A DNA stretch of 32,980 bases. It comes from Terriglobia bacterium. GTDB lineage: Bacteria; Acidobacteriota; Terriglobia; Terriglobales; Acidobacteriaceae. The notes beneath the pieces were generated by a model. That model did no database searches. It had not been told where the DNA came from and saw nothing but the letters and a program-made list of their open reading frames with translations. This document shows, one piece after another, positions 342-22,693 of the stretch (positions within the stretch are counted from its first letter, which is position 1; the number at the start of each line of letters is the position of its first letter). The position numbers and the translations under genes are program-made. The stretch is taken from positions 1 to 32,980 of the forward strand of contig JAIQFZ010000036.1 of NCBI GenBank assembly GCA_020073015.1, written 5' to 3'.

Positions 342-976
<635 letters not shown>

Positions 977-1885: not shown

Positions 1886-1889
1886 TACT

Positions 1890-8293: not shown

Positions 8294-8557
8294 TTATGCT
8301 TGCTTCCGCGCCCAGCTGGAGGCATTTAAGCACTCCACTGTGCCGTCGATCACTTTGGACAAGCCTTCCTTGAACTTCGCCTCATCAACGATTTCCCGGT
8401 TCGCCACCGCCTCCGTCAATTGGAGCGCCGCTGCGACAAAGGAAACTGCGGAGTCTTTTTTCTGCTGGCCGGACTGACTTCCGAACAGGCCCTCGATGCT
8501 GTTCACGATTGCAGGGACAAACGAAATCCCCTGCAGTAATTTCTGCAGAAAATCCAT
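8294..8557 (-). CDS. Small phage-module protein, unknown
   Basis: An 87-aa protein. The ATG at 8557 is chosen over a GTG one codon upstream because AAGGAG lies 7 nt before it. The N-terminus is amphipathic and hydrophobic (MDFLQKLLQGISFVPAIVNS), followed by a GSQSGQQKKDS linker and a helical region with a single Cys. No family is recognised. It may associate with membranes. It sits between the coiled-coil/TM protein and the lipoprotein-like gene. Confidence 0.6.
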   Translation of the reverse strand: MDFLQKLLQGISFVPAIVNSIEGLFGSQSGQQKKDSAVSFVAAALQLTEAVANREIVDEAKFKEGLSKVIDGTVECLNASSWARKQA

Positions 8558-8617
8558 CACTGCTCTCCTTCTTAGTTGTGTAAGTGAGTTACTGCGTGAA
8601 AAGAAATACCGTGTGCC

Positions 8618-8914
8618 TTACTTAAACCCCAGGTGGTCATGCAGCGCGATCATCGCGCTGACCGCGAACGCAATGGCCGCCGTCACGATTCGGTCATAAA
8701 CGTTCCTTTTAGTGTCGCTTTTTTCAAGAGCTCCAACTTTTTCTTCCAGTATCCTCAACCGTCCTGGCTGGCCATTGCCGACAATCATGTCGACCTTAGC
8801 TTCCACCATCCCCAGTTTTTCCAGCACTTCAAGTTGAAAGTCGCCGCTCATCTGGAATACCACCGGTGAATGAGTCCCTTCCCCAAATCCAGTTTCTTCA
8901 TCACTGCGCTTCAT
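8618..8914 (-). CDS. Coiled-coil protein with C-terminal membrane anchor (holin/XhlA-like shape)
   Basis: A 98-aa protein. The first 25 residues are polar. Residues about 28-68 form a heptad-like helix (VLEKLGMVEAKVDMIVG and LRILEEKVGALEKSD), followed by one membrane segment, IVTAAIAFAVSAMIALH, near the C-terminus. This layout matches haemolysin XhlA-like proteins, which sit next to lysis genes in many phages, but sequence identity cannot be claimed. The start overlaps the stop of the upstream tail gene by 4 nt (ATGA), so the two are translationally coupled. It may be a holin, an anti-holin, or a tail-associated membrane protein. Confidence 0.6.
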   Translation of the reverse strand: MKRSDEETGFGEGTHSPVVFQMSGDFQLEVLEKLGMVEAKVDMIVGNGQPGRLRILEEKVGALEKSDTKRNVYDRIVTAAIAFAVSAMIALHDHLGFK

Positions 8915-11256
8915 AATGGATAGTCAACATGCAGTCCTGCCGAATACCGCGAATACTTCGGCGGGGAACTGTTGTCATATCTCCGTAAGAAATAGTCTTG
9001 CACCCTGCCAAAACGTGGCAGCGTGAAACTGCTGCTCGTAAACCGGCCCGCCAGGTTGCGATCGTTGTCCGGTCCCCAGCCGGCATCCGAGCTCCGCACT
9101 TCGATGCCTTCGCCCGCTCCCGGAGTGAACCCCGTATCCACCGTCACCGTGGTCGAACTCACATTCGTGACGGCGGCCAAGGTCAGATCCGCCAGAAACA
9201 TGCCGACCGCGCTGATCTCCGTCGCAGCCATCGCGGTTGCCTGCGTCGCAGTCGCGGTCTGGAATGCAAAATCCAACGACGGATCTGCGGCGTCCACAAA
9301 CTGCAGCGTGTAGCGGCAATTCTCCCCCGCGACGTCCATGATCTCCACGTCCACATCCCGCACGATCGCGGCAAAGGACGACGCCCGGGACGGAACCTCA
9401 ACCGCTAACCCGTCCCCCGGAAAAATGTCTACCGCACCGCCGGGCAGGAATGGGCTCCACGTCCGATACTGCCCCGCCCATCCCAGCCCGGCATCATCCA
9501 GCAGCGCCAGAGCTGCTGTCTCGCAATCCGTCGAAGTGCGTGGAAGGGGCATTGCGATCTGCCGCACAGCTCCGCGCACTCCGTCGTCGCCGCCGCGCTG
9601 CAGAGCTGCAATACCCGCCGAGTTCATTACCCGTGCTCTAGCGTGATTGCGGCCGCGATAACTCACTTCAATCATTTCGTTCGCGGCCGGGATGTATTGC
9701 GGATAAAACTGCAGCGACGGTTCCTCAGAAACATGGCACTCCGCTCCTTCCCGAAGCGAACCGGTACGCCGCGTCCGCGTGCTCTGCTGCGGCAAAGTGC
9801 TGCGGACCAGCGCATCCACCGCCAGAAAGAGATAGGTGAACGTTACCGAACATTGCATGCGAGCAGCATTGACCAGTGCGTAGGTGCAGAACCCCGGAGC
9901 GTTCGCAAGGACGTTGTCATACAGCACCGTCGCCGGCGCGACCTGGGTCGCCGGATTTGCTGGGTCGATGTCATGCACTTCCAGTACAACCCGAACGCCA
10001 CTCACGATTGCATTACCGCCTCGCGACGCCCCAACCGGATGCAGTGCCGAGTGAAACACCTGCTGCGTGCGATAAACCTCGGTGGGATACAACTGCGTCG
10101 TGAACACGTAGTGATGCCCGGCTTGTGTCGTGAGGGCTGTTCCCGTGCTATTGCCGCTGATCAGAGCCCGAATACTGCAGTTCGTCCCCGACGGAGAGAT
10201 GCGGAAGCCCGCCAGACATCCTGCGATCGAAACCCCACCAGCATAGAGCCCCCCGATTACCCCGTCCGACGCCGCGCTGAACACTACGTCGCCGTGATTG
10301 AGTACCGTGGCTCCCCCCAACTCGATCTGCTCAACGAAGTCCAGGCACGTTTGCCCGTCCGTTCCCGTGCCGCCCGTAACTCGAAGCTGACCTCCGCTGA
10401 CGGCAATCGCGTGCTGTGGATCGACCGCCGTCCAGTGTGTCGGATCCAGCGTCGCATATTCCTCGTACAGGACGGTACCCGAACTCAGTGCACTGCTTGC
10501 CATCGTGCGTGTAAACGGAATCTGCGACAGGTAGAACCTGGTCGTGAACCCGTCCCCCACAAAGTAGTCCCTCACGTGGGCACTCGGTTCCAGCGGTCCC
10601 AGAATCGTCAGGTCATTGACGATCCGGTCGACGCTGCGCAGCGTAAGGTCACCCGGAGAGAAATCGGCAGCCGTCTCCGCCAGTTCGTACGTCTTTTCCC
10701 CTAAGGGAGCAAAGTACAGTTTGCCGCCATCATCGCGGTACGCACACCGCGCCGCCAGTGCGATCTCCGCCGCTGACGCGCTCCAACCCTGCGCCGGATT
10801 CACGCGATAGTATGGGATCGGATCGCCCTCCTCGACTCCGCTGTAGTCAAACCATCCGGCTAACGCAAACTCGCTCAGTTGCCGGAGCGCCTCACCCGCG
10901 CTCCGGGCCACGAAAGGGGGGTGCGGAGGTGGTGTTTTACGATCCAACACCGTTTCGTCACCCCGCGCTTCCACCTCATACCTGTAGATCGGGCCCTTCT
11001 CAGCCCAGCCCATGTACTGATACGTCGGCGCGCTCAGAACATAGCCGGTGAATACATCACTGCCGTTGCTTCGGCCCAGCATCACGCGTGCCCCCACCAC
11101 CGGCACCACGAAGTCGCCGTCTCCCGTGACCAGGCTGAATTGCAGGGTGGCCGGGCTGTTCAGCTTGCGCGTCAGATGCGGACTCTTGCCCGCGTCCAGA
11201 AATGCCGTGTAGTCCTGCGGCCCACGCCCGTCCAGGTTATCGATCGTAAGTTTCAT
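8911..11256 (-). CDS. Phage tail/baseplate hub-like protein with inserted lectin-like region
   Basis: About 781 aa from the ATG at 11256. A TTG seven codons upstream is also possible. The N-terminal ~250 residues (LTIDNLDG, GARVMLGRSNGSDVFTGYV, RYEVEARGDETVLDRK) and the C-terminal half (PLPRTSTDCETAALALLDDA, FPGDGLAVEVPS) look like a hub or tail-attachment protein of siphovirus type. Between about 255 and 480 lies a region reading like a beta-sandwich carbohydrate-binding domain (HWTAVDPQHAIAVSGGQLRV, VVLEVHDID). It follows the tail-tube-like gene, and its stop is coupled to the coiled-coil/TM gene. In most siphophages a tape-measure gene would lie between tube and hub; none is present. The hub assignment is by position and style only. 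Confidence 0.65.
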   Translation of the reverse strand: MKLTIDNLDGRGPQDYTAFLDAGKSPHLTRKLNSPATLQFSLVTGDGDFVVPVVGARVMLGRSNGSDVFTGYVLSAPTYQYMGWAEKGPIYRYEVEARGDETVLDRKTPPPHPPFVARSAGEALRQLSEFALAGWFDYSGVEEGDPIPYYRVNPAQGWSASAAEIALAARCAYRDDGGKLYFAPLGEKTYELAETAADFSPGDLTLRSVDRIVNDLTILGPLEPSAHVRDYFVGDGFTTRFYLSQIPFTRTMASSALSSGTVLYEEYATLDPTHWTAVDPQHAIAVSGGQLRVTGGTGTDGQTCLDFVEQIELGGATVLNHGDVVFSAASDGVIGGLYAGGVSIAGCLAGFRISPSGTNCSIRALISGNSTGTALTTQAGHHYVFTTQLYPTEVYRTQQVFHSALHPVGASRGGNAIVSGVRVVLEVHDIDPANPATQVAPATVLYDNVLANAPGFCTYALVNAARMQCSVTFTYLFLAVDALVRSTLPQQSTRTRRTGSLREGAECHVSEEPSLQFYPQYIPAANEMIEVSYRGRNHARARVMNSAGIAALQRGGDDGVRGAVRQIAMPLPRTSTDCETAALALLDDAGLGWAGQYRTWSPFLPGGAVDIFPGDGLAVEVPSRASSFAAIVRDVDVEIMDVAGENCRYTLQFVDAADPSLDFAFQTATATQATAMAATEISAVGMFLADLTLAAVTNVSSTTVTVDTGFTPGAGEGIEVRSSDAGWGPDNDRNLAGRFTSSSFTLPRFGRVQDYFLRRYDNSSPPKYSRYSAGLHVDYPL

Positions 11257-11341
11257 GGTTTTCAGATAGCTCCGCAAGCTGGTACCCAGGGCGGCGCAAC
11301 GGTTTCATTGTCGATTTTCCGCAGCGTGCCCCCAGTGAGAA

Positions 11342-12319
11342 TCAGTAAACGGGCGAGTTACTCGCCGGGAAGTAACTCCTGTAACACAACACTACAGCAC
11401 CATCATTCCCATCGACCGTCGGCAATGCCGTAAACGACGCCCGCAATGCCACCAGACTGATCGGCTTCTGAATCTCGACCAAACTCTCCCGTTCCCAAGC
11501 CGGCTTCGTCGTACATGGGCTCAGGCTGGGATAGAAAAGACAGATACGCCCACCCGATTCCTCTTCCATCACAAACAACCCCGACCACTGCTGTAGGAAC
11601 GCGCCGCCTTCGCGATCCACGAATGCGATGACCTTCTGCACCGACGCGGCAGCCGCCGGCGTCCCACCCGGCAAGGCCTGCGCCAGCAGCAACGAGGTCG
11701 CCGTCTTCTGCGCAACTCGCCCGACATTGAATGTGACCCGCCGCACGTAGTTCGCGTCCTGCCGCACATCTCCAGGATTCTTCACGTACGCCGCCGCAAT
11801 CCCAGAACCCACAAACCCGACCTGCTGCGCATAATCGACATCGCAGGCCACCAGGTCGCCCGTCTGAAACCCGTTAATCGCGCCGGCTCCGACCACCAAT
11901 TCCGCCCCGGTCGAGCCTGCCAGTAAAGGCACTGCGGTTACTGGAATTCCCCCCGATCCTGCGCGCGATCCGCTCGCATCCGTCGCCAGCACATTCATAT
12001 GCTCTGCACCACCCGCCAGCGCCATCTGTAACTTGCCCCAGTCGCGAAATTCAAAGTCGATTCTCGCTCCCAACCCGTGCCGCGCCTGTACCGATATCGC
12101 CCCGGCTAGTCCGCCCGTCAGAGGCTCGATCTGCGTCGCGCTCGTGCGCTGAAAGTTTTCGATCCAACCCAGATCGATCCACGGCCCCGGCGGCGAATCC
12201 ACCTGGAACCCGTAGTCCTTCGACGGATCAAAGATCGCGGTTGCTCCATTCACACGATCCACCGGAGCAAAGTAGGCGCGCGTCTGCCGCGACACTGGCC
12301 GTAGTCCCGTACGGGTCAT
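11342..12319 (-). CDS. Putative major tail (tube) protein
   Basis: A 325-aa protein whose ATG overlaps the previous gene's stop by 4 nt (ATGA). It is beta-rich, with Gly/Ala/Val-rich repeats, and includes DLGWIENFQRTSATQIEPL and FEFRDWGKLQMALAGGAEHM, a style typical of tail-tube or major tail proteins. It sits after the connector, head-closure and tail-completion genes, exactly where a tail-tube gene is expected. It is longer than many tube proteins (about 150-250 aa), so an additional surface domain may be present in the middle. The family assignment is an inference from order and style. Confidence 0.65.
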   Translation of the reverse strand: MTRTGLRPVSRQTRAYFAPVDRVNGATAIFDPSKDYGFQVDSPPGPWIDLGWIENFQRTSATQIEPLTGGLAGAISVQARHGLGARIDFEFRDWGKLQMALAGGAEHMNVLATDASGSRAGSGGIPVTAVPLLAGSTGAELVVGAGAINGFQTGDLVACDVDYAQQVGFVGSGIAAAYVKNPGDVRQDANYVRRVTFNVGRVAQKTATSLLLAQALPGGTPAAAASVQKVIAFVDREGGAFLQQWSGLFVMEEESGGRICLFYPSLSPCTTKPAWERESLVEIQKPISLVALRASFTALPTVDGNDGAVVLCYRSYFPASNSPVY

Positions 12320-12828
12320 GCTCCAACCTCCGGCAGAAAGAAATAAACCTTCAGCTGCGCATATCTCGTGAGCCGCGCCGGGCTCGCGCGCCGTTCCTTC
12401 GTGAGCGCTTCTCCCGGAGTCTTCGCCAGGTCCGGCATCGTCCAGAAGATGCTGGAGCCCAAACCCGCGCTCGGAGACTGACTGTAATCCCGCAAGCCGG
12501 TATAAGGTGGATTGCAGATTCTCAGCAGTTCTTCATCCATCTGCGCCAGCGCGCGTCCCCGGTCCACACCCGCGCCGACACTCCCTTCGCTCGCATACCA
12601 GATCTGGCAATCCAGCCCAAGAATTGGCCGCGTACTCTCCGCGATCTGCGCTTCTCCCCAATCCACGTAAAACGCTCCCACCTGAGCTTCCGCAAACTGC
12701 GGCTCCATGTTTTCGCGAACCACGATCGCCGGCAGTGCCACCCCGTCCACCACCATGGTTCGCGCCGGATTCAGCGCCGCCAGCCTGTCCCGCAGCGCCA
12801 TGTAGAAACTGTCCTTTGCCGCCTGCAT
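12316..12828 (-). CDS. Putative tail-completion / neck protein
   Basis: A 170-aa protein starting at MQAAKDSFYMALRDRLAALN, with AGGAG 5 nt before the ATG. The frame stays open upstream through a dispersed repeat (12879-12942), which is not coding. Its length and position between the head-closure-like gene and the tail-tube-like gene fit the neck or tail-terminator proteins of tailed phages. No decisive motif is visible. Its stop is coupled to the next gene by ATGA. Confidence 0.6.
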   Translation of the reverse strand: MQAAKDSFYMALRDRLAALNPARTMVVDGVALPAIVVRENMEPQFAEAQVGAFYVDWGEAQIAESTRPILGLDCQIWYASEGSVGAGVDRGRALAQMDEELLRICNPPYTGLRDYSQSPSAGLGSSIFWTMPDLAKTPGEALTKERRASPARLTRYAQLKVYFFLPEVGA

Positions 12829-12878
12829 GTTTCTCCTATTAATTCCCGACCCGTGGACTCTCCCGAATTTCCGCCCAT

Positions 12879-12942
12879 TGTCATCCTGAGCGGAGCAGAG
12901 CAATTCGCGAAGTGAATCGCTCTGCGGAGTCGAAGGACCCCC
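12879..12942 (+). repeat. Dispersed palindromic repeat, long form (TGTCATCCTGAGCG family)
   Basis: TGTCATCCTGAGCG opens the unit and GGAGTCGAAGGACCCC closes it. Between them is an inner palindrome GCAGAGC...GCTCTGC around a CGCGAAG centre. It lies in the 207-nt gap between the head-closure and tail-completion genes. Confidence 0.85.
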
Positions 12943-12988
12943 TGCCTCACCCCGAAACGTGAAGTGAATCACTGATGCAGATAGTCAA

Positions 12989-13030
12989 GAGCTGACCGCT
13001 GATGGCTGACAGCTGACGACTGACAGCTGA
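12989..13030 (+). repeat. GCTGAnnGCTGA short tandem repeat
   Basis: A run of degenerate 7-10 nt units (GCTGACCGCTGATGGCTGAC, then further CTGACGACTGACAGCTGA). It lies just beyond the stop of the head-closure gene region. Similar tracts occur at 62-85, 303-336, 19697-19720 and 20123-20148. Confidence 0.6.
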
Positions 13031-13035
13031 ACGCC

Positions 13036-13446
13036 CTACGCCACCGCCAGCACCCGATACAGGTACGCCACTCCCGCAAATCGTTCCACCACATATCCCT
13101 CGATGTGGAACATCTCTCCCTGATACACCACACCCAGAGCCGTTTCGAATAACACTTCCGCGGAGGCGACGTTCCGTTGGCTCACCTGCTCTGCCATGGC
13201 ACTCCGCCCCGCCACCAGTTCGATCCTTCGCCGCGGACCGTTATTCTCCGTCGTCAACTCGCGCACGAGCACCGGCGAGATCAACGCCTGCTCGACGCCC
13301 GGGTCCACCAGTCCCAGTTCTGCTACGCGATCCGCCGGCAATCCCGCTGCCGCAAACAACAGGGCTACCTCCGCCCCGCCCAAGGTCCGCAGCATGGCGT
13401 CTGCTGCCCGGATCGCCACCATCCCCGAAATCCCCGTCATGGTCAT
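13036..13446 (-). CDS. Putative head-closure protein
   Basis: A 136-aa protein. The ATG overlaps the stop of the connector gene by 4 nt (ATGA). It holds an Ala/Leu-rich N-terminal half and a C-terminal beta region (EVLFETALGVVYQGEMFHIE), ending YLYRVLAVA. Size and order match head-closure / adaptor proteins that follow the gp6-like connector. No diagnostic motif is visible, so the call relies on position. Confidence 0.6.
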   Translation of the reverse strand: MTMTGISGMVAIRAADAMLRTLGGAEVALLFAAAGLPADRVAELGLVDPGVEQALISPVLVRELTTENNGPRRRIELVAGRSAMAEQVSQRNVASAEVLFETALGVVYQGEMFHIEGYVVERFAGVAYLYRVLAVA

Positions 13447-14069
13447 CCCACCTTCTGCGCAACATAGGGCACCAGCAGCGCGCGCACCGTACTATCCAGC
13501 AGCGCATCCGAGAAGTACATCAGATGCATTCGGTCAAGCATGCCTTGCTTCACGTTCAGGGCCGGAGTGGCCTGCGCATTCTTCACTAACTGCGCACAGG
13601 CCACCTTCACCGTGTCCGGTATCGGATCCAGTCCCGCCGTGTAGACAATTTCAACTTCGCTGAATCCCCAGCCCAGCACATTGACCGGCAGCCTGATTTC
13701 GCCAGTCTCCAGGCAAGCATCGAGATCCGCCGCACCCAAGTCGGTCCACGACCCAGGCAACCCAAACACCGCTGCGGCTTCCCAAGCCATCTCTTCGTGG
13801 AGCCACTCGCCGCGACGTGGCATGGAGTAACGCGCCCGCGCCGACACAATGGGCGACGTCGCGGGTGCGACCGCAACCAGAGGCAGGTACGTCGTCCGGA
13901 TCGCGCCTTGTCCGGTCTCGATCCGCATCCGCTCCGTGTACTGAACAATCGCCAGCGTTGCCCGGCGGCAATGGGAATCCACAATCGCCGAGGCCGCAAT
14001 CACCCACGCCGCGGCGGTCGTCGCTTCCAGCCCATACTTCTCGTATTCCGATGGTTGCAGATAGTTCAT
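13443..14069 (-). CDS. Putative head-tail connector (gp6-like adaptor)
   Basis: A 208-aa protein starting at MNYLQPSEYEKYGLE, with GGGAG about 7 nt before the ATG. The frame is open for 107 more codons upstream, but those run through a repeat and antisense of the capsid gene and are rejected. N-terminal helices (TTAAAWVIAASAIVDSHCRR) and a helical C-terminus (KVACAQLVKNAQATP) suit the alpha-helical adaptor family that docks on the portal ring. It sits just after the major capsid gene, as expected. It is coupled to the following gene by ATGA. Confidence 0.65.
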   Translation of the reverse strand: MNYLQPSEYEKYGLEATTAAAWVIAASAIVDSHCRRATLAIVQYTERMRIETGQGAIRTTYLPLVAVAPATSPIVSARARYSMPRRGEWLHEEMAWEAAAVFGLPGSWTDLGAADLDACLETGEIRLPVNVLGWGFSEVEIVYTAGLDPIPDTVKVACAQLVKNAQATPALNVKQGMLDRMHLMYFSDALLDSTVRALLVPYVAQKVG

Positions 14070-14127
14070 GATCAGCTCCCAGCCTTCAGTCGTCAGATCT
14101 CGGCCCCCAGTCCTCCTGTGGACTTGA

Positions 14128-14163
14128 TCCACTGAGAACTGAGAACCGGGAACTGAGAACTCG
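14128..14163 (-). repeat. GAACTGAGAACCGGGAAC repeat next to capsid stop
   Basis: ACTGAGAACTGAGAACCGGG followed by AAC recurs at 22744-22766. Both copies lie within 15 nt downstream of a minus-strand stop codon (major capsid here, the deacetylase gene there). Confidence 0.6.
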
Positions 14164-14164
14164 T

Positions 14165-15133
14165 TTACCGGTTCACCTTCACTTCGTAGTGCGCATACGA
14201 CGCGCCCTTCACCACCACGCCGCCGAATTTCACCACGACGCTTTCCGTCGCCAGCGAACTCGGCAGTCCCAGCTTGAACACCCGCGGATTCGGATCCGTG
14301 AGCCAGTGGTACTCGATCATGTCCTCGCTCACGATGTAAGCCGGCAGCACACTCCCGGCTCCCCCCGTGCCCGTGTACCCCAGTGCCCACTCCGGAATCA
14401 GCGGCAGATCCCCCGCCTGCGTGCTCAGGGTCTTGACCCGCAGCCCGCCCGTGATTTCGGTGGTCGAGAGCACGACATTGAACTCCGCCTTCATCTCGCG
14501 GTCGATCAAGTCGAGCAGCACCGGGTTCGCGTAAATCGCCGTGGGCCGCACTTCGAACGACGAGCTCGCCACCATCTGCGCGATCGTGCTTTTCAGCCCA
14601 TCCACGATGCTCGCGCCGGCTGCAATTGTGGTCGTGTTGCCTCCCGCATCGATCTGTCCGATAGCGCCGAAGTATTGCGCCGTCGTCGGAGCACTGAGCG
14701 ATGTGTCATTGCCGTTCCACAGCGCCACATCGTGCGTGCGCAGCAGCCCTTCCACCGCATCGGCCAGATCTTTGGCCTGCAGGTAGGCGAACTGGCTCTG
14801 CTGCGTCCCGACCTCCAGGTCAAATAGGTTGTAGTTGATCTGCGACACCAGAGCTTTCAGCGGGACGCTGCGCTCCACCCGAGTCGGCGATTGCGTCGTC
14901 GGCTGAATGTTGCGCGGGTCCACGAACGCCTGGGCCGCCGTCGGCGATGCAATCGCGGTCTCTTCGAAAAACCGCGACGGATGCCCGGTCGCAGGTACCT
15001 GCTTGATCCGTTGTCCGAACACCCCGCGCCGCCGCACGATGTCCGTGATCTCTGTCTGATACCGGTCAACCTCGACCGCACCCGGCCCCAGAAAGTCCGC
15101 GGCCGCATGCAAATCCAGAAAATTCGCTTTCAT
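14165..15133 (-). CDS. Phage major capsid protein
   Basis: A 322-aa protein, ATG at 15133 with GAGGAG 6 nt upstream. It builds the icosahedral shell. Sequence style is HK97-fold: an N-terminal arm (YQTEITDIVRRRGVFGQRI), a long loop region, a helix with the DLEVGTQQSQFAYLQAKDLA pattern, the RTHDVALWNGND turn, and a C-terminal domain with PTAIYANPVLLDLIDREMK and PNPRVFKLGLPSSL. Its position after protease and scaffold-like genes and before the connector confirms the role. There is no long N-terminal delta domain, which fits the presence of a separate scaffold-like gene upstream. It is separated from the scaffold gene by a hairpin terminator and a dispersed repeat, so it may have its own promoter. 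Confidence 0.85.
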   Translation of the reverse strand: MKANFLDLHAAADFLGPGAVEVDRYQTEITDIVRRRGVFGQRIKQVPATGHPSRFFEETAIASPTAAQAFVDPRNIQPTTQSPTRVERSVPLKALVSQINYNLFDLEVGTQQSQFAYLQAKDLADAVEGLLRTHDVALWNGNDTSLSAPTTAQYFGAIGQIDAGGNTTTIAAGASIVDGLKSTIAQMVASSSFEVRPTAIYANPVLLDLIDREMKAEFNVVLSTTEITGGLRVKTLSTQAGDLPLIPEWALGYTGTGGAGSVLPAYIVSEDMIEYHWLTDPNPRVFKLGLPSSLATESVVVKFGGVVVKGASYAHYEVKVNR

Positions 15134-15188
15134 GTCTTCTCCTCAATTGAGTTGTTATTGCCCGTTCTGTTCCTGACCCATTTCCGCT

Positions 15189-15215
15189 TGTCATCCTGAG
15201 CGAAGCGAAGGACCT
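15189..15215 (+). repeat. Dispersed palindromic repeat, short form
   Basis: TGTCATCCTGAGCG joins directly to AAGCGAAGGACCT, the 27-nt short version of the family, upstream of the major capsid gene. Confidence 0.8.
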
Positions 15216-15291
15216 CGTGTTCCCTTGCTCTGCGAGCGCAGCCGGGTGCGGACACTCATCGCGCACTCTGCGATGAGTGGGTTCCATTCAC

Positions 15292-15321
15292 CCAAAGAAA
15301 AAAGGCGCGATCTCTCGCGCC
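15292..15321 (-). terminator. Intrinsic terminator after the scaffold-like gene
   Basis: On the minus strand GGGCGCGAGAGATCGCGCC is followed by TTTTTTC. It lies 26 nt past the stop of the scaffold-like gene and before the capsid gene. Confidence 0.75.
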
Positions 15322-15346
15322 CACTGTGCGCCCTACTCGCGACTCG

Positions 15347-15778
15347 CTACTCGATCATCCCCGCCCGCGCCAGTTCCGCTTTCACGGCGATACGCTGCTC
15401 CACGCTCAACGCTGCCAGCGTCTTGTCGAGCACCGCTGCATCCAACCGCTGCCCGTCAACCTCGTTCTTCCCCAGCAGCGCCGACACCACCGGAGAGAGC
15501 GTCTTCCGAGCCATCCGTGCCGTCTGCGCTTTCAGGTCGGCAGTCGATTTTTCCAGCTCCGCCAGCCGCCGCTGCAAATCACCGCCCGCTTCTTCCGCCT
15601 GGCGTTCCTCCGCAACTTGAGCAACGTTCTCCTCGACCGCCGCCACGATCCGATCCACTTTCGCGTTCAACGTTTCCTGTTGTGCGTCCAGCTTCCCCAG
15701 CACGCGATCCAGCGTCTCCGTCGCCGTCGCCAGCCGCTCAGCCGCCGCCATCATCTGCTGCACCAACTCCTCGTTCAT
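15347..15778 (-). CDS. Coiled-coil scaffold-like protein
   Basis: A 143-aa protein starting at the ATG of MNEELVQQMMAAAERL, with GGAGAGG 9 nt before it. A GTG three codons upstream is less likely. Residues about 5-95 are a continuous heptad-rich helix (ATETLDRVLGKLDAQQETLN and DLQRRLAELEKSTADL). The C-terminus is a small Ala/Leu-rich helical domain. Location between prohead protease and major capsid, acidic helical composition and size all fit a capsid scaffolding protein that the protease would remove. No family motif can be named. A terminator follows it. Confidence 0.7.
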   Translation of the reverse strand: MNEELVQQMMAAAERLATATETLDRVLGKLDAQQETLNAKVDRIVAAVEENVAQVAEERQAEEAGGDLQRRLAELEKSTADLKAQTARMARKTLSPVVSALLGKNEVDGQRLDAAVLDKTLAALSVEQRIAVKAELARAGMIE

Positions 15779-15817
15779 TCTCTTCACCTCTCCAAGTCTG
15801 CAAGATACTTACATCGA

Positions 15818-15880
15818 GTCATCCTGAGCGGAGTAGATTGCATCACGAAGCGATGCAATCTGCGGAGTCGAAGGACCCCT
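15818..15880 (+). repeat. Dispersed palindromic repeat, long form
   Basis: GTCATCCTGAGCG opens and GGAGTCGAAGGACCCCT closes. The inner palindrome is AGATTGCATC...GATGCAATCT, different in sequence from the 12879 and 20975 copies but equally self-complementary. It lies between protease and scaffold genes. Confidence 0.85.
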
Positions 15881-15886
15881 ACCCAC

Positions 15887-16435
15887 TCACGACTGTTCCA
15901 GCTCAATCCAAGTCGAGCGATACGCCGCCTTCTCCCGCAACAAGATCGCCGCTCCCGTAAACGTCACCTTATTCAGCACCCACACGGTCGCGTGAATGTC
16001 CTGAATCTGCGCATCGGCAATCTCGTAAGACATCCCCAGGCCCTGTGTGGGTGCCCCATCCTTGCGCGTTCTTTGCGCAAGGGTGGGTGTTTTTCTTTCA
16101 ATCTCCGCCACAATCTCCGGAAAATCCCGCGCATACAGAAACCCGCTCACCTCGATCCCCCGCCCCACAATCTCCGCCCGAGTGATCACCCCAATCTTCC
16201 GCCGCACATCGTGACGGTCGAGCGCTGGAGCATAGTCCAGCGCCATCCCCAGCAGCGACGGAATCGCCGCCTCCGCCGCACGCCGCGTCAGCAACACCCG
16301 ATGCCCCCGAGCTCCAGCCGGAGGCTTGTCCGACGCCACATCGACGATCGTCAATATCCCCTTGAACCCCACCCGGTTCGGATGCCCCAACACCGCCGGC
16401 ATCTCAATCGCCATCGACTCCATCGACAATCCCAT
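15887..16435 (-). CDS. Prohead (capsid maturation) protease with in-frame repeat insertion
   Basis: A 182-aa HK97-type prohead protease that trims the immature capsid. His75 in ALDRHDVRRKIGVIT and Ser136 in LGMSYEIADAQI match the family's His...Ser pattern. The C-terminal VWVLNKVTFTGAAILLREKA block is typical. The ATG at 16435 is chosen because AAGGAG lies 6 nt before it; an ATG two codons upstream is only 1 nt from the ribosome site. Residues about 115-132 (KTPTLAQRTRKDGAPTQG) are encoded by a dispersed hairpin (16055-16087) that interrupts the protein between EIERK and LGMSYE without shifting the frame, just before the catalytic Ser. It sits between portal and scaffold-like genes. Confidence 0.8.
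   Translation of the reverse strand: MGLSMESMAIEMPAVLGHPNRVGFKGILTIVDVASDKPPAGARGHRVLLTRRAAEAAIPSLLGMALDYAPALDRHDVRRKIGVITRAEIVGRGIEVSGFLYARDFPEIVAEIERKTPTLAQRTRKDGAPTQGLGMSYEIADAQIQDIHATVWVLNKVTFTGAAILLREKAAYRSTWIELEQS
16047..16090. repeat. Dispersed hairpin inside the protease gene
   Basis: CCCATCCTTGCGC pairs with GCGCAAGGGTGGG across a short loop, flanked by GTGGGTG on both sides. It lies within codons about 115-132 of the protease and preserves the reading frame. I recall similar GTGGGTGCCCCATCCTTGCG units as intergenic repeats in Acidobacteriota. Confidence 0.8.
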
Positions 16436-16473
16436 TCCCATCTCCTTTTTGGCCTCGGCATACTCTCTATTTT

Positions 16474-16500
16474 TGTCATCCTGAGCGAAGCGAAGGACCT
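16474..16500 (+). repeat. Dispersed palindromic repeat, short form
   Basis: The same 27 nt as at 15189-15215, lying between the portal stop and the protease start. Confidence 0.8.
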
Positions 16501-16562
16501 CTGCAGTTCGGCGTGCGTCGGCGTCTATCCGTGCGCTCAGTGCCAAAGGGAAGCCCTCGCCC

Positions 16563-17906
16563 TCACACCATCTCCGCCAGTCCCCGCGCCCGCCGCACTT
16601 CATTCACTGTCACTACTCCATTCCGCAAGAGGATCTCGTCAATCTGCGCCTGCTGCATCTCATCCGTGGCATCGACGTCAGTGAATACGAATTCCAGGTC
16701 CGTCCATCCCAGCTTTTTCCCGATGGCATCCCGCGTCAGATGCTCCGCCACCAATCGCGCGGTCGGAACAACCGCCGACCGGAAGGCCAGTTCATTCATC
16801 TCCGCTGCCGTCGACCGGTTCACATCGCGCTCCACTCCCAGAAACTGCGCCGGCAAGTCGAACGCATCCGCGATCACCCGCAACAGGAACTCCTGCCACG
16901 CCAGCCGGAGGTCTGCATCCGTTCCCGCCCCAAACCGTAGTACCTCCGGCTTCGATTCCACCGAAAGAATCGGCACCCGCCCCGTACCCTCAATCTCATC
17001 CTGCCACCACCGGATCAGCCGCTCGTGATGCGCCGGGCTCAGATCCTGCAGCCACAACGCATACTGCACCACCGAATTCGAAGCCAGCCGAGACGCATAC
17101 CGGTGCGCGCTAAGAAACGAGTTGATCGTTTCAAACGCCACCTCCACTCGGCCCAACCCGAACGGAGTATGCGTCCGAGGATTCAACCGGATGTAACTCA
17201 GTTCGTCATCGTTAAGAACGATCTGCCCCTCCGGCCCATGAAAGCCCGTCGCCTGCACATACCGAGGCGAATCCGGCCGCCCATCCCAATCCGTCATGAT
17301 CCGGATCGAAGCCCCATCCACTGGCCACATCAGAAGAGGTAGCGCCGGCGTCCCGCCGGCTGTCGGGACGGAGTCTCGCCGTCCCAGCCCGTTGACCGAG
17401 CCAGTCCACCCGTCCACCCGATCCAACTCAATCGCTCCAAACCCGCCAACGATCACGTCCTCCAGCACCTGCTCCAGCAGTGACCGGAACGAATCATCCG
17501 GATTCGGCGCCTCAAAATTCTCGGTCAGGATCTGCGCCCGCAGCGCGCCCTCCGGAATCTGGTCCAGCGACCGCCCCCGCCGAGCCTGGATCCGCCACTT
17601 CATCCCCGCAATGCGATCCTTAGTTACATTGATCGCCCGCCGCGCCACCGGAGTCTCCGCAAACCGCCGCAAATTAGCCGGCGTAGGCTTCGGCACAAAG
17701 TTGTGTAGGGCGGACACTCCTGTCCGCCCAAAGCGTGCAGCTGTCGTAACTCCTGAGGGAAAGAACGGGGCCAGGTTCGACCCCGCTCCCACCGTCCGCC
17801 GCCCACTACTTCCGGCTCGCGCAAACAACTTCGCCGACACCAATTCCCGCAGCGACACTTCTCCCACCCGGCGCATAGCGCCGCGAACCCTCTCTCGAAT
17901 GTTCAT
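16563..17906 (-). CDS. Phage portal protein with two in-frame repeat insertions
   Basis: A 447-aa portal of the HK97-type family, the ring at the capsid vertex through which DNA is packaged. The ATG at 17906 follows GGGGAGATC. Family features include PKPTPANLRRFAETPVARRA near residues 72-91, the DRIAGMKWRIQ block, LLMWPVDGASIRI, and the C-terminal FDLPAQFLGVERDVNRSTA and EILLRNGVVTVNEVRRARGL segments. Two stretches interrupt the expected sequence and coincide with dispersed palindromes: residues about 45-70, including RFGRTGVSALHN (17703-17735), and residues about 173-190, including GRRDSVPTAGGTPA (17341-17386). Both keep the frame. The gene follows a terminator and lies upstream of the protease, as in HK97-like modules. 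Confidence 0.85.
   Translation of the reverse strand: MNIRERVRGAMRRVGEVSLRELVSAKLFARAGSSGRRTVGAGSNLAPFFPSGVTTAARFGRTGVSALHNFVPKPTPANLRRFAETPVARRAINVTKDRIAGMKWRIQARRGRSLDQIPEGALRAQILTENFEAPNPDDSFRSLLEQVLEDVIVGGFGAIELDRVDGWTGSVNGLGRRDSVPTAGGTPALPLLMWPVDGASIRIMTDWDGRPDSPRYVQATGFHGPEGQIVLNDDELSYIRLNPRTHTPFGLGRVEVAFETINSFLSAHRYASRLASNSVVQYALWLQDLSPAHHERLIRWWQDEIEGTGRVPILSVESKPEVLRFGAGTDADLRLAWQEFLLRVIADAFDLPAQFLGVERDVNRSTAAEMNELAFRSAVVPTARLVAEHLTRDAIGKKLGWTDLEFVFTDVDATDEMQQAQIDEILLRNGVVTVNEVRRARGLAEMV
17341..17386. repeat. Double hairpin repeat inside the portal gene
   Basis: GCCGGCGTCCCGCCGGC is followed by GGGACG...CGTCCC. Both hairpins fall inside the portal frame and encode residues about 173-190. 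Confidence 0.75.
17703..17735 (+). repeat. REP-like palindrome inside the portal gene
   Basis: GTGTAGGGCGGACACTCCTG plus the closing TCCGCCC arm, nearly identical to the intergenic copies at 30613-30640 and 1864-1885. On the antisense strand it encodes FGRTGVSAL of the portal. Confidence 0.85.
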
Positions 17907-17921
17907 GATCTCCCCGTCTTC

Positions 17922-17947
17922 GTGTGGAGCGGACATTCCTGCCCGCG
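17922..17947 (+). repeat. REP-like palindrome upstream of portal
   Basis: GTGTGGAGCGGACATTCCTG with a closing CCCGC arm. The pairing is imperfect, so it looks like a decayed copy. Confidence 0.65.
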
Positions 17948-17998
17948 AACGGCGTGCAACTATCTATGATCTTGCGACTACAATCACTCTCACATTCT

Positions 17999-18059
17999 GT
18001 CATCCTGAGCGAGGATTGCCGCTCACGAAGTGAGTGGCAACCGCAGTCGAAGGACCCCT
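17999..18059 (+). repeat. Dispersed palindromic repeat, long form
   Basis: GTCATCCTGAGCG and CGCAGTCGAAGGACCCCTA frame a third, different inner palindrome (TTGCCGCTCA...TGAGTGGCAA around CGAAG). It lies in the 248-nt gap before the portal gene. Confidence 0.85.
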
Positions 18060-18101
18060 ACTTCACCAACCCAGCCTGCATCGCCCGCAGGCTTTCTCCC
18101 C

Positions 18102-18133
18102 AAACAAAAACGGCACAGCCTTCGCCGTGCCGT
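18102..18133 (-). terminator. Intrinsic terminator before portal
   Basis: On the minus strand ACGGCAC...GTGCCGT is followed by TTTTGTTTG. It lies about 20 nt past the stop of the small membrane protein, so the capsid genes downstream need read-through or another promoter. Confidence 0.75.
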
Positions 18134-18154
18134 GCAGCTCTCATCTTTACCATG

Positions 18155-18478
18155 TCAAAGGATCGCGAACGCCCGCCCTAGCGCAAGAATGCCGCCCAAA
18201 AGACAGAGCACGCCCGCAATCACCGAGGTTAAGTCCGTAGCTTTCCGAATCGCCCACACTCCAACCCACACCCACATAGTTCCAGCAACAAGTTCCACGC
18301 CAGATGGACTCACCCCTAATTTAGCCAGCCATTCTGGCACCTCTAAGATTGCGAACACGCCAAGAAGCACAACCATCACAATACCAATGGCAACCGCATA
18401 CGCGAGCACGATGTGTTCCCGCCACCATTTTGCGCGCTTCTTACGTGCCCGATTCGCGGCTAGGAATTCATCCGTCAC
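18155..18478 (-). CDS. Small three-helix membrane protein, unknown
   Basis: A 107-aa protein with a basic N-terminus (RARKKRAKWWR), then three predicted membrane segments: IVLAYAVAIGIVMVVLLGVF, ELVAGTMWVWVGVWAI and SVIAGVLCLLGGILALG. The GTG start at 18478 overlaps a TGA (GTGA) that belongs to a duplicated scrap of the DUF3037 gene's 3' end, so originally it was probably coupled directly to that gene. No family is recognised. A toxin-immunity, sensor or effector role in the kinase/DUF3037 cassette is possible but not shown. Confidence 0.6.
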   Translation of the reverse strand: MTDEFLAANRARKKRAKWWREHIVLAYAVAIGIVMVVLLGVFAILEVPEWLAKLGVSPSGVELVAGTMWVWVGVWAIRKATDLTSVIAGVLCLLGGILALGRAFAIL

Positions 18479-18499
18479 GCCCGCAGCTCCCGCCGCACG
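18475..18499 (-). repeat. 25-bp direct repeat, copy 1 (scrap of DUF3037 3' end)
   Basis: Identical over 25 nt to 18901-18925. On the minus strand both copies encode the end VRRELRA plus stop, followed by GTGA coupling. Here the copy is not attached to the gene and precedes the next membrane protein. Confidence 0.85.
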
Positions 18500-18538
18500 C
18501 TGTCTCCAGTCCTGCTAGGTAACCAGTCTGCTCTGTTC

Positions 18539-18904
18539 CTAAGGAATTGTACTCATGATCCAGAACACTGCCGTCCCAAAACATGCGGACGCTATAGGCG
18601 CGATCAAGCGCGGTCGCCCTAGGAACCCTAGCAGCGGTGCAAGTGCGCAGATCCGCACGCTCACCTTGGTCCAGGTCTGTGCGACGCGAACCTGAGCTCC
18701 AAAATCGCTCCCCCAGAACGCTGGCATCACAAACCTTAGAAACACCGCCACCGAAGCGAGCGCGACCGCCGCCAGGCTGACCCAATCCCTCCAGCAAAAC
18801 CATTTCTCTGAAGAGGTCTTCAGCAAGCGGAACCAGGAATAGAGGAACCCGATCAGCCCCGCAACGCAGCATGCCAAAATGAGCACTTGTACAGATGTAC
18901 TCAC
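18539..18904 (-). CDS. Multi-pass membrane protein, unknown
   Basis: A 121-aa protein with about three to four hydrophobic segments: VQVLILACCVAGLIGFLYSW, WVSLAAVALASVAVFLRFV, and a C-terminal pair including ICALAPLLGFLG and IASACFGTAVFWIM. The GTG start overlaps the stop of the DUF3037 gene (GTGA). It is bracketed by a 25-bp direct repeat whose other copy lies after it, so the gene looks inserted between the DUF3037 gene and the next membrane gene. No family is recognised. Confidence 0.6.
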   Translation of the reverse strand: MSTSVQVLILACCVAGLIGFLYSWFRLLKTSSEKWFCWRDWVSLAAVALASVAVFLRFVMPAFWGSDFGAQVRVAQTWTKVSVRICALAPLLGFLGRPRLIAPIASACFGTAVFWIMSTIP

Positions 18905-18925
18905 GCCCGCAGCTCCCGCCGCACG
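18901..18925 (-). repeat. 25-bp direct repeat, copy 2 (authentic DUF3037 3' end)
   Basis: This copy is in frame and forms the true C-terminus VRRELRA of the DUF3037 protein. The twin lies 426 nt away at 18475-18499. Confidence 0.85.
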
Positions 18926-19704
18926 TCCTCCGCCACCGCCGCCATCTCCCCCACCACCCGCACCCGCACCGAATTCTGCTCCAGCATCCCGATCGCAAAC
19001 GCGTTCCGATCTTCCGGCAACGCCAGCCCCTGGTCCACCACCGCCGTCAACGACGCCCGCATTTGCTCCTGCCGCATCCCCGCCTCAATCCGCGAGTAAC
19101 GATACGCCAGCGCCAAAGCCTGGTCCACATTCACCGCCAGCGACACCGCATGAAACATCTTCACCGCCCCGCCCACTCGATATCCAAAATCAATCCGGAA
19201 CGGATCGCCCAGCCCCGTGTACTTCCCCACATCCAGATCTCTCTGCATCAAGTCCAGCACACCCGCATCGGCGAAAGCCTCTTTCATCGTGGCGACAATC
19301 GCCCCGCGCCCCGTGCGCTGCTGCGTCCGCTCGCCCCGTCCCAGCGGAGCGAAATACATCTCCGCCAGCACTTCCATCTCTTTCGCCGGATCCTCCGTCA
19401 GCACGCCCTTCGCCGGTGAGACATCCAGTGAAGACCCGAACCGCTCATCGACCAGGTGAATCAGGTCGTCCCGCCGCCGCAGACTGCCCAGTCTCCCGCG
19501 AATCTCGTTTTCCACCTTCTCAAACCACTCTGTCTCCACCTCCGGAGCCACACACTGCAGCATTCGCCAGTCGCGCGTGAACCGCAAATCCGCAAACCCG
19601 CCATCCTTCTCCACCAACAACAATCCCACCGTGACAAAGTCATCCCGCAAAGCATGCGGCAGAAACCGAAGCAGGAACAACTCAAGTTGTCGCTTCTCAG
19701 CCAT
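18901..19704 (-). CDS. DUF3037-family protein
   Basis: A 267-aa protein whose N-terminus matches the DUF3037 pattern: LELFLLRFLPHALRDDFVTV followed by GLLLVE, where the family has RY.P...R.EF.NVGV. The remainder is helical, with HAVSLAVNVDQALALAYRYS and a C-terminal MAAVAEDVRRELRA. The function of the family is unknown. I recall genes of this family standing next to HipA-like kinases in many genomes, and here a HipA-like kinase lies upstream with one small gene between. The ATG begins 7 nt after the restored stop of the four-helix-bundle gene, so the three form one unit. The stop is coupled to a membrane-protein gene. Confidence 0.75.
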   Translation of the reverse strand: MAEKRQLELFLLRFLPHALRDDFVTVGLLLVEKDGGFADLRFTRDWRMLQCVAPEVETEWFEKVENEIRGRLGSLRRRDDLIHLVDERFGSSLDVSPAKGVLTEDPAKEMEVLAEMYFAPLGRGERTQQRTGRGAIVATMKEAFADAGVLDLMQRDLDVGKYTGLGDPFRIDFGYRVGGAVKMFHAVSLAVNVDQALALAYRYSRIEAGMRQEQMRASLTAVVDQGLALPEDRNAFAIGMLEQNSVRVRVVGEMAAVAEDVRRELRA

Positions 19705-19710
19705 CAGCCC

Positions 19711-20084
19711 TCAGCCCTCAGTTCCAGTCCTAGGCTGGCCGAGGTATTGGATGAAGCCGCTCAACATCTTCTTAGTTTCGACCACCTGTTCCGAAAGCTG
19801 CTGGTAGACCTCGGGATCCAGGTAGCCAGATCATGCGATAACAACAGGTGATACTCCAGCTCGCTCGCCGAACCGAGTGCGATCTGTAAGAACCGAGCCA
19901 GATCAGGTCGTGAGTTCTTTCCCGACCCTTCAGCGATGTTAGCCCCAATCGAAACAGCCGCCCGCCGAATCTGGCTGGTCAGGCCGTACAATTCCTCTCT
20001 CGGCAACAACTTAGTCACGCGGCAAACATCCAGCGTCAACGCGTGCGCCTTATCCCAAACCTTGAGCTCTCGAAAATCGCGCAT
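19711..20084 (-). pseudogene. Four-helix-bundle protein (S23/IVP-type), frameshifted
   Basis: The first ~86 residues match the four-helix-bundle family: FRELKVWDKAHALTLDVCRV, ELYGLTSQIRRAAVSIGANI, AEGSGKN, and ELEYHLLLSHDL. After HDL the frame turns to nonsense (ATWIPRSTSSFRNRW) and stops at 19761. Reading one base over restores the family ending: GYLDPEVYQQLSEQVVE, then TKKMLSGFIQYLGQ, to a TGA at 19711. A single missing G at about 19827 (CTGGGCTAC to CTGGCTAC) explains this. The restored protein is about 124 aa, the family's usual size, and ends 7 nt before the DUF3037 start. A homopolymer error in assembly is possible. Members are known as intervening-sequence proteins of 23S rRNA and as stand-alone genes of unclear function. 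Confidence 0.85.
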
Positions 20085-20148
20085 AACGCCCTTCCCTAAC
20101 TCAGAAACCGAACGCCTTACCCGACGGCTGATGGCTGACGGCTGACCG

Positions 20149-20952
20149 CTAGTTTTCTACCCACTCCGGAAACGGCCGCCGCGGCGAACTCCGAAACGCC
20201 TGAATCAACTCCCGCACCACTTCCCGCCGCTCAATCAGCTTCGTCACCAAACGTTCCAACTCATCCCAGGATTCCCCATACCACGCCGGAGGAATCTCTC
20301 CCGCCACCGCCCAGATCGCATCTTCGTCCAGCTTCTCGATCCGCGACAGCCAAGGCTCAAACGACTCCCACCCTCGCACCCGAGCATAAACTTCGTTCCT
20401 CGGATACACACCGCGGAGCGGAAAATCGGGAAACGTCCACTCCCCCGCATTGAAACAGTAACCCTGATCGATAAACGCCGCCGAATATTTCCGTTCCCGC
20501 AGCTTCCTCCAGAATGCCGCCTGCCGCCCGTCCGCGTTGCACGTCCACTTGTCCAGCGCCAGGATTCCGGTAAACGTATCGAGATTCCGAACCCGGTCCA
20601 GCATTTCCGGCGGAAGATAATCCAACACCTGCCCCTCCACCGGACTTACCACATACCGCGACCCGAATTGCAACCCCGCCTCGGCCGGGATCACCTGCGC
20701 CCCCAGCACAATCGTCAGTTCCGCCGTGTGTTCCACCAGCCACTGCGTGACCTCCACCACTTGCGCAATCGGCACCGGCAGCCCCACCCGCTCCGCCAGC
20801 CGAGTCGCCAGAAACTCATTCGCCAGCACCCGCTCGCTCTGCGGATTGTTCCGAAACTTCACCACATAATAATGACCATCGTCGCAGCGCATCAGATGCC
20901 CCTGCGCACCGCCCCGCATCCTCTTAACGTGTTGGACCGCCGTGGTCGGCAT
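20149..20952 (-). CDS. HipA-like kinase
   Basis: A 267-aa protein resembling the short HipA-family Ser/Thr kinases. Lys32 in YYVVKFRNNPQ is the likely ATP-binding lysine. The GLPVPIAQVVEV block follows. LALDKWTCNADGRQ (Asp134, Asn139) corresponds to the catalytic Asp/Asn loop, and FIDQGYCFN (Asp162) to the metal-binding Asp. No HipA N-terminal domain and no HipB-like repressor are present, so it is not a classical HipBA pair. The start could be the GTG at 20973, but the ATG at 20952 is preferred. The gene lies between the large terminase and the portal, an unusual insertion point in a head module, and is followed by four-helix-bundle and DUF3037 genes. Confidence 0.75.
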   Translation of the reverse strand: MPTTAVQHVKRMRGGAQGHLMRCDDGHYYVVKFRNNPQSERVLANEFLATRLAERVGLPVPIAQVVEVTQWLVEHTAELTIVLGAQVIPAEAGLQFGSRYVVSPVEGQVLDYLPPEMLDRVRNLDTFTGILALDKWTCNADGRQAAFWRKLRERKYSAAFIDQGYCFNAGEWTFPDFPLRGVYPRNEVYARVRGWESFEPWLSRIEKLDEDAIWAVAGEIPPAWYGESWDELERLVTKLIERREVVRELIQAFRSSPRRPFPEWVEN

Positions 20953-20974
20953 CTTCCACGAACCCTGATCCACT

Positions 20975-21038
20975 TGTCATCCTGAGCGGAGCAGAGTGAT
21001 TCGCGAAGCGAATCGCTCTGCGGAGTCGAAGGACCCCT
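20975..21038 (+). repeat. Dispersed palindromic repeat, long form
   Basis: TGTCATCCTGAGCG opening, GGAGTCGAAGGACCCCT closing, inner palindrome GCAGAGTGATTCGC...GCGAATCGCTCTGC. It fills the gap between terminase stop and HipA-like gene start. Confidence 0.85.
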
Positions 21039-21133
21039 ACCTCATCGGTCCGCCTGCGTGGATACAGTTCTCCACTTTGCAATCTATCCTCTCCCTGCTC
21101 CCGTGCCTGTGACCACCGCCACATCAACTTTGT

Positions 21134-22693
21134 TCACTTTTCCGCCAGGCTTTCCCATCCCATCTCGACGCTTGCCCCGCGTCCCGCTTCCGCCGCCCGC
21201 ACTGCCCACGCAATCGCCAGCGCCATCACGCAGTCATCATGGGTTCCCGGCGCTGCTCCCGTATTCCCATCCGCGTACCGCACAAACGTCCGGCACTCAT
21301 TCAGCAGCTTCGCGCTTCGAAACAGCGTCGGCTCCTCCGCCAGCGCCGCCGCCAGATTCTCAATCATCGCCGGCCGGCTCACCGCTGACGTCAGCCACCC
21401 ATCCTGCCCTTTCTGCACGAACACATTCGGATACTCCATCATCCGCAGACACGCCAGCACCCCGTGCCCGTGATTGTTCTTCTCCACCGCCAGCAGCGCC
21501 GTGTTGTATTCCTTCCCCAGATCCACCAGCTTCTGCGCCAGTTCCCGCGGTGGATAATGCCCATGCAACTCCACGCACTGCGTTCCCAACTCCCGATCGA
21601 TCACCTGCGCGCAAGAGTAGTCGCCCTCCGCTCCACCCCCCGCCGGATCCACTCCGATCACATACTCCCGCCCTGCCTGCGCCGGAAGCCAGGTCATCAG
21701 CCGTCCGTTGTCCCGCGTCTCCACCGGATCTCCCGATCCCGCCAGCGCGCGTTCCACCGCCGTCAAATCAAACACGCACTCGCCCGACGCCCGGAAGCAA
21801 GACACCGCATCCTCGGCAAACTCCTGCACCGCGAATCCGCGCAGCGCCGACCACTGCTTCCGCCGCCAGGCGATCTGTCCCGGCTTCAACCCGTGAAGTT
21901 CCGCCAGTCCCCGTTCTTCCTCCGTCATGGGCAGAAAATTCGGACCAAGCTTCGCTTTGTACCTGTCTTCAAACCACCACGGGAAAAAATGCCGCGTATA
22001 TCCTGTCTCGTCCGCCCGCTGCCACTCCTCATAAAATGTTCCGCCGGCGCCATTGGCAGTCGACTCCAGCACGATGTCGCCGCCCGGAACCACCGCCGCC
22101 CGCAACGATGCCAGTGCTTCTTCTCCTCCTGGCCCCCACCGCGCCACTTCCGAGCAATGCAGGTTCTGAATCGTCCATCCCCGCCCCGCGTTCTCGTCCG
22201 CTGTCGCCACCGAGTACTCGCTATCCAGCAAAGGAAACACCAGCTGCCGCGCATTGCAATGCGAAGTCCGCAGCGGACCTTTTCGCCACTCCGCCGGTAG
22301 GTTCTCCCAGAACCGCCTCACAATGTGGAAAATCTCCTCCGCCGATTCCCGATCGTGCGCCACCTGCACACTCAGCGTCCCCGGCCGGGTGATCGTCTGC
22401 ACAAAAAATCGCGCCGCGATGTAACTCGTGATCCCAAGTTGCCGTGCCTTCAGCACAATGTTTCGCTTCGAGCATCGCCGCGAATACTCCCGCTGCACCT
22501 GATTCAGGCGGAATCGCCTCCGATTCGTCTTAGTTCGTATCCGCAACCACCGCCCGATAAAAGCGTCGCGCCTCGTCGGCACCCATAACTCACCGAGTTC
22601 CAGCTTGCCCACCTTCCGCCGACGTCCCACCGGACGTTCATCCAAGCGTGTCCCCAGCAATTCAAACGCCCCAAGCCCCCAATGACTCGTCAA
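21134..22693 (-). CDS. terL: Phage terminase large subunit
   Basis: A 519-aa DNA-packaging motor and nuclease. The ATPase part has a Walker-A variant LKARQLGITS (81-90), a Walker-B LHCSEVARW with Glu182, and a coupling motif LESTANG (209-215). The RNase-H-like nuclease has Asp349 in VIGVDPAGGGAEGDYS, Glu404 in LLAVEKNNHGHG, and Asp486-Asp487 in GTHDDCVMALAIAW. All key residues are present, so it should be active. The start codon is TTG, preceded by AAGGAAAG. No clear small terminase lies next to it; the 124-aa protein at 31279 is one weak candidate. It is separated from the head genes by the HipA/DUF3037 cassette. Confidence 0.92.
   Translation of the reverse strand: MTSHWGLGAFELLGTRLDERPVGRRRKVGKLELGELWVPTRRDAFIGRWLRIRTKTNRRRFRLNQVQREYSRRCSKRNIVLKARQLGITSYIAARFFVQTITRPGTLSVQVAHDRESAEEIFHIVRRFWENLPAEWRKGPLRTSHCNARQLVFPLLDSEYSVATADENAGRGWTIQNLHCSEVARWGPGGEEALASLRAAVVPGGDIVLESTANGAGGTFYEEWQRADETGYTRHFFPWWFEDRYKAKLGPNFLPMTEEERGLAELHGLKPGQIAWRRKQWSALRGFAVQEFAEDAVSCFRASGECVFDLTAVERALAGSGDPVETRDNGRLMTWLPAQAGREYVIGVDPAGGGAEGDYSCAQVIDRELGTQCVELHGHYPPRELAQKLVDLGKEYNTALLAVEKNNHGHGVLACLRMMEYPNVFVQKGQDGWLTSAVSRPAMIENLAAALAEEPTLFRSAKLLNECRTFVRYADGNTGAAPGTHDDCVMALAIAWAVRAAEAGRGASVEMGWESLAEK

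Follow-up and report, generated by a model that had tools for sequence, protein, structure and literature searches.

The window, a stretch of 32,980 nt, is contig C211 of a Terriglobia draft genome of 5.5 Mb in 245 contigs, probably a MAG. The host had been taken for an acidobacterium from the letters alone, and the nearest portals in named records agree, coming from Acidobacteriaceae, Terriglobia and the like. For gene prediction we wrote a codon-score script and trained it on this genome. Positions 8297–22456, on the minus strand, hold a prophage-derived module in a conserved order, with genes for TerL, a HipA-like kinase, the portal, a protein in the protease position, a capsid-like protein, a connector and tail proteins. 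The portal gene (16566–17936, minus strand) matches Pfam PF04860 (8.7e-43) and the PHROG portals, and its product has the portal fold. In the prohead-protease position lies a gene at 15890–16441 (minus strand), found beside the portal in all 20 chosen relatives. Its ORF was called as 15890–16603; judging from the alignment with homologues, the part upstream of about 16441 is probably non-coding and the real start is probably at 16441. Pfam and PHROG searches gave no hit for this gene, so the name protease rests on its position and on a motif recognised in the earlier note. The capsid-like gene (14168–15133, minus strand) is named by position only.

Gene order of the module was kept in 20 of 20 relatives, which were selected for carrying the portal, and in 15 of these 20 stretches the module lay beside an E2 gene (6138–7400 in the window). 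The claim that the module derives from a phage is supported. Identity to the seven annotated phage records compared was 23–26%. No integrase was found among nine different window proteins scanned with Pfam and PHROG. The gene beside the portal (18904–19704) was tandemly duplicated in G147 (L139:4092–5775) and in G127 (L140:4112–5795); it had the highest dN/dS measured, 0.21 against G147, 0.27 against G127 and 0.53 against G179.

Three palindromes, all mapped on the plus strand, lie within the portal and protease-position genes. REP A (17703–17735; GTGTAG-GGCGGACA-CTCC-TGTCCGCC) lies in loop 1 of the portal, where its in-frame translation is FGRTGVSALH. REP B (17339–17391) comprises two hairpins, GTAG-CGCCGGCGTCCCGCCGGC and GGGACGGAGTCTCGCCGTCCC, in frame in portal loop 2. 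Palindrome C (16049–16087; GGGTGCCCCA-stem-TGGG) falls in frame in the linker that precedes LGMSYE in the protease-like protein. The earlier note had described three translated hairpins in these places, and we confirmed both their positions and their open, stop-free frames. It had also credited REP A with about 25 added residues; the segment is indeed in frame, but REP A itself spans only about 11 codons, and 25 residues is the length of the entire variable loop. A and B both carry GTAG and are GTAG-type REPs. C is only REP-like, a GGGTGCCCC head replacing GTAG.

Near-identical copies of REP A, as claimed from the letters, occur elsewhere in the window: at 1857–1893 (minus strand, outside the head genes; 89% over 37 nt) and at 30613–30642 (plus strand, near the 5' end of the gene at 25531–30534), where 30618–30642 match at 25 of 25 nt. 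An A-type REP (7400–7423, plus strand) directly follows the E2 gene. A search of the host genome for the three repeat families, which the earlier note had called for, found every one of them dispersed. REP A had 44 matches, its own copy counted; the first hairpin of REP B, GCGCCGGCGTCCCGCCGGC, had 44 when up to 2 mismatches were allowed, including 11 exact ones, and its reversed control had 0; and the palindrome C pattern GGGTGCCCCA-N18..28-TGGG had 36 (control, 1). Stems varied widely among the palindromes with a GGGTGCCCC head at these 36 places. Because the head was fixed in the search, this shows only the variety of stems behind one head, which may be the recognised part.

The 413 kb of host DNA scanned contained 74 GTRG hairpins vs 14 in two Markov replicates combined, and this control together with the reversed patterns ruled out chance hairpins. 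At 80% identity, 85 of 128 GTRG hairpins had at least two relatives. These 85 repeated hairpins, in 1.003 Mb, divided into 58 that were intergenic, 24 inside 22 predicted genes and 3 overlapping gene ends, samples 1 and 3 of this count being mostly contigs that carry REP A hits; in the unselected sample of 216 kb, repeated REPs lay 0 times in genes, 3 times between them and once overlapping. The repeats are multicopy, dispersed and mostly between genes, as GTAG REPs are. Orientation relative to the gene was opposite for 16 of the 24 in-gene REPs and the same for 8, and all phases were represented. A few of the 24, for example those at L249:8844, L124:13341 and L249:13070, have a predicted start or end close by, and the true gene may not include them.

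Other repeats share the window. A second dispersed family, GTCATCCTGAGCG, occurs at 12880, 15190, 15818, 16475, 17999 and 20976, often with GAAGGACC after it and in some copies with a hairpin, mostly between module genes. Degenerate 14-nt tandem units of the GCTGATGGCTGA type lie between genes at 305–349, 12977–13035 and 20120–20150; in two relatives (L018 and L020) the protease-position gene contains strings resembling them that appear to be translated.

The host genome has eight matches to Y1_Tnp, seven of them above the Pfam cut-off. The eighth, a RAYT-like transposase gene in the window (395–976, minus strand), scored 21.2 bits (cut-off 23), and 43.7 bits against NCBIfam REP_Tyr_transpos (curated cut-off 80). 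A-type REPs lie in its predicted 3' end (518–543, plus strand), on its other side in the same orientation (1005–1028, plus strand), and further out in the opposite orientation (1148–1172, minus strand). The Y1_Tnp gene on C53 has an inverted pair of the first hairpin of REP B, one on each side; that on C45 has C-type palindromes as an inverted pair; that on C141 has an inverted pair of a related type; and on C71 A-like palindromes lie on either side in both orientations. On C34 the nearest C-type pair is in the same orientation, as is the nearest A-like pair in the window, and the expected inverted nearest pair is thus absent at two of six flanked genes. The flank scan gave only an unrelated hairpin at C95 and none at C137; it also missed C53 and C34, so these two are not firm absences. 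Flanking of RAYT genes by cognate repeats is another property of GTAG REPs, and it is found here. From this flank anatomy and from what the REPtron sections of PMC3733652 describe, we infer that the RAYT-like enzymes may move these palindromes.

The genes that contain REPs extend well beyond the phage module. Named hosts include MnmG (with two REPs), hydantoinase B, ValS, MutL, TrmFO and PurL; further ones are MoeA, which contains an inverted pair, and an acyltransferase with a REP near its start. The best solved matches of PurL (3viu), MoeA (2nro), ValS (1gax) and TrmFO (3g5q) lack the REP segment. In-frame elements in MnmG, ValS, PurL, MoeA and others rule out an effect special to capsid genes. 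At L130:18395–19999 a single open frame joins LeuD-like and LeuC-like regions with a REP between them, possibly a gene fusion made by the REP or a missing stop.

These hosts bear on one alternative, that the module is a decaying prophage and the inserts are mere damage in dying genes. The module is patchy: its portal was found in 120 of 200 genomes of the family (101 of 146 good ones) and in just 8 of 24 genomes of the genus, counting our own (5 of the 10 that were good). G200 has both module ends with the middle absent, G028 and G204 have remnants, and G165 has the E2 gene alone in the stretch fetched. We read the gaps in G200, G028 and G204 as loss. Against decay, dN/dS relative to G147 was 0.09–0.21 for the ten module genes measured, including 0.131 for the portal, 0.175 for the protease and 0.090 for the capsid-like gene, with 0.081 for the neighbouring E2 gene; dS relative to G093 was saturated for several genes. 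The gene order retained by all 20 chosen relatives also speaks against dying genes, as do the similar inserts in MnmG, ValS, PurL and MoeA, and we think decay an unlikely explanation. The proposal that the palindromes can disable capsid proteins is likewise unsupported; the genes have open frames and evolve under purifying selection.

A second alternative is that in-gene hairpins are kept for a job, such as mRNA stability, pausing, or binding of gyrase or RAYT, and are not merely tolerated. We compared four enzymes across 12 same-genus orthologues each, our own included, taking the best 12 loci of 21 genomes; the MnmG loop was compared by MAFFT alignment only. In different species the PurL and ValS loops contained REPs of several types, two REPs together or degenerate remnants, in open frames, and traces of the MoeA inverted pair occurred in most of the 12 orthologues. 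Stems in the PurL, ValS and MoeA loops exceeded those of same-gene segments (0 of 200 controls each). MoeA stems covaried across 10 species, after two of the 12 rows, which were not 81 nt, were dropped: 142 of 160 cells were paired, with 11 double changes vs 2.9 in shuffles (0 of 500). Such covariation is what a working hairpin would give, but the shuffles ignore relatedness, replacement of one REP by another yields the same pattern, and several of the PurL and ValS loops are degenerate. We judge a retained function quite improbable. The variety of REPs in shared loops could reflect selection on the hairpin, but also re-insertion or gene conversion, and we prefer the latter two.

The portal allowed the segments to be compared with their absence. 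We kept 76 rows of 111 hits, dropping duplicate ORFs and any row in which the anchors did not match. Loop 2 had 8 residues in 65 of these 76 distinct relatives, 14–17 in five and 28–87 in six. The six long loops are those of the window (28 residues) and L039, both of the B type; of L012 and L023, of the GGACGAATGCGTCC type; of L052, of the C type; and of L056, with 87 residues and several palindromes among them. In a midpoint-rooted portal tree of 44 sequences the six belong to more than one clade and are separated by relatives with short loops. In all 200 of 200 resamplings, stems in these six segments of at least 28 residues were longer than those in segments of the same gene. The prediction that homologues should lack exactly the inserted residues therefore holds for loop 2 in the 65 short-looped portals, but five have 14–17 residues there with no clear palindrome. 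Loop 1, where the window has REP A and G147 a different REP subtype that is read backwards from GTGTGGCGCGGACA, is long in several same-genus relatives, in some of them without a clear palindrome. The portal match at G127:C57 (L010) has one TAG stop inside.

In the best alignment with G127, loop 2 of the window differs by a 48-nt insert (17344–17391) and a separate 6-nt difference. The insert comes directly after GAGGTAGC, which is common to G127, and a target duplication is absent. Such a junction after a shared GTAG would be compatible with RAYT mobilisation. The empty loop-2 site of G147 reads GAGGCAGC, with GCAG in place of GTAG, so GTAG is not constant in empty sites. We surveyed empty sites in 44 alignments, covering our own genome, G200, G147, G127 and G202. 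Only the portal loop-2 junction was judged clean, the others having another REP or having diverged; with this one clean junction, we withhold a general claim about target sites.

An AlphaFold model of the portal (mean pLDDT 71, pTM 0.66) matched the fold of phage portals, including that of HK97, and of GTA portals. Seven stretches had pLDDT below 50. One of these, residues 55–84, holds REP A (about residues 68–78); another, residues 182–195 between two strands, holds most of REP B (about 182–200). Whether the inserts fall in loops had been posed as a check, and the AF2 model places both REPs in low-confidence, putatively loop regions.

The protease linker gave a less clear picture. After unanchored rows and duplicate ORFs were dropped (57 rows kept of 85 hits), it measured 5–7 residues in 32 of 57 distinct relatives and 13–91 in the other 25. 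Twelve tested linkers of 14–30 residues were not stem-rich relative to same-gene segments (23 of 200 controls reached their mean); their stem content was above that of shuffles, 3 of 200 of which reached the mean. Palindrome C is best described as a palindrome within a linker where many other sequences are tolerated too, and the case for an insert is weaker than in the portal. The test set for an ancestral segment, homologues with the residues in place and no palindrome, is partly satisfied here, many relatives having long linkers without palindromes.

That the segments are ancestral protein loops, palindromic by chance or biased composition, is suggested by the long and mostly non-palindromic protease linkers of many relatives and by the long loop 1 of same-genus portals, some without a clear palindrome, but we consider it very improbable, because the DNA of the segments matches families with tens of copies elsewhere, loop 2 has just 8 residues in most portals, and stems beat same-gene controls in four of five tests (the exception being the protease linkers); for A and B, copy number and absence from most homologues contradict it.

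We are confident, short of certainty, that the segments are host REP-type palindromes that were copied into genes by RAYT, and that in-frame copies in surface and linker loops survived. RAYT-like single-strand transposases would do the copying, and the copies to survive would be those that both keep the frame and land in a surface or linker loop. We infer that the same loops recur through tolerance of insertion and not through a preference of the transposase, and that in-gene REP inserts are near-neutral. A further reading, which we offer tentatively and to which we give somewhat less than even chances, is that certain loops of essential proteins in this genus are standing docking sites for REPs. 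In-frame REPs would repeatedly be swapped there for those of other families, by re-insertion at the resident GTAG or by gene conversion, so that the loops would evolve by palindrome turnover and compensatory stem changes and not by point mutation, and a single-strand transposase would diversify proteins genus-wide.

These observations extend protein-coding palindromes to a major soil phylum, with a candidate transposase source in the same genome, and illustrate how selfish DNA can turn into bits of protein. Same-site comparisons across the genus (12 orthologues, four enzymes) make the fate of an inserted peptide traceable, so that one can directly test whether peptides derived from REPs are just neutral debris or supply raw material for protein loops. 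In structure models such inserts would show as unexplained low-confidence loops.

The module resembles gene transfer agents and domesticated prophages in its head-tail cluster, its conserved host locus, its purifying selection and its portal, which matches those of GTAs and HK97. It differs in being known here from its genes alone and in not being found in most members of the genus. From gene content and conservation, it is a candidate for a domesticated particle of Acidobacteriaceae, such as a gene transfer agent.

For the palindromes, a parallel with those of Rickettsia had been drawn. RPEs are in-frame palindromes in functional genes (Ogata et al., as cited in PMC3733652), and the inserts here work in a like manner, being in-frame palindromes in otherwise conserved proteins. 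They belong to another phylum, however, and here Y1_Tnp genes are flanked by the same kinds of repeat. PMC3733652 describes rickettsial intragenic REPs as of the CGTC type (the RPE-4/6 tag); the tags here are GTAG or GGGTGCCCC, and by the tag as described there these palindromes are set apart from rickettsial RPEs, A and B being GTAG-type REPs instead.

The closest known system is that of GTAG REPs and REPtrons. In the portions of Di Nocera et al. (2013, PMC3733652) relevant here, some GTAG REPs lie wholly within ORFs, including repair and tRNA-synthetase genes, intragenic copies are published for several species, and the recB genes of two Xanthomonas species have REPs that differ although they lie at about one site. 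The only acidobacterium in those passages is Koribacter, with TIR-flanked transposases. Among the matches listed in our literature searches, whose scope lay outside subscription journals and supplements, no title mentioned REPs inside acidobacterial genes. As far as these searches show, it is new that such REPs occur in an acidobacterium, that phage-type head genes carry them and that fixed loops are re-occupied across a genus. Judged by those same passages, the repeats share with GTAG REPs the GTAG tag, the short palindrome, dimers in opposite orientation, repeat-flanked RAYT genes and copies inside ORFs. They differ in residing in Acidobacteriaceae and in the phage-type head genes of a conserved module, and in that, from species to species within one genus, many of them compared, the same loops carry different palindromes.
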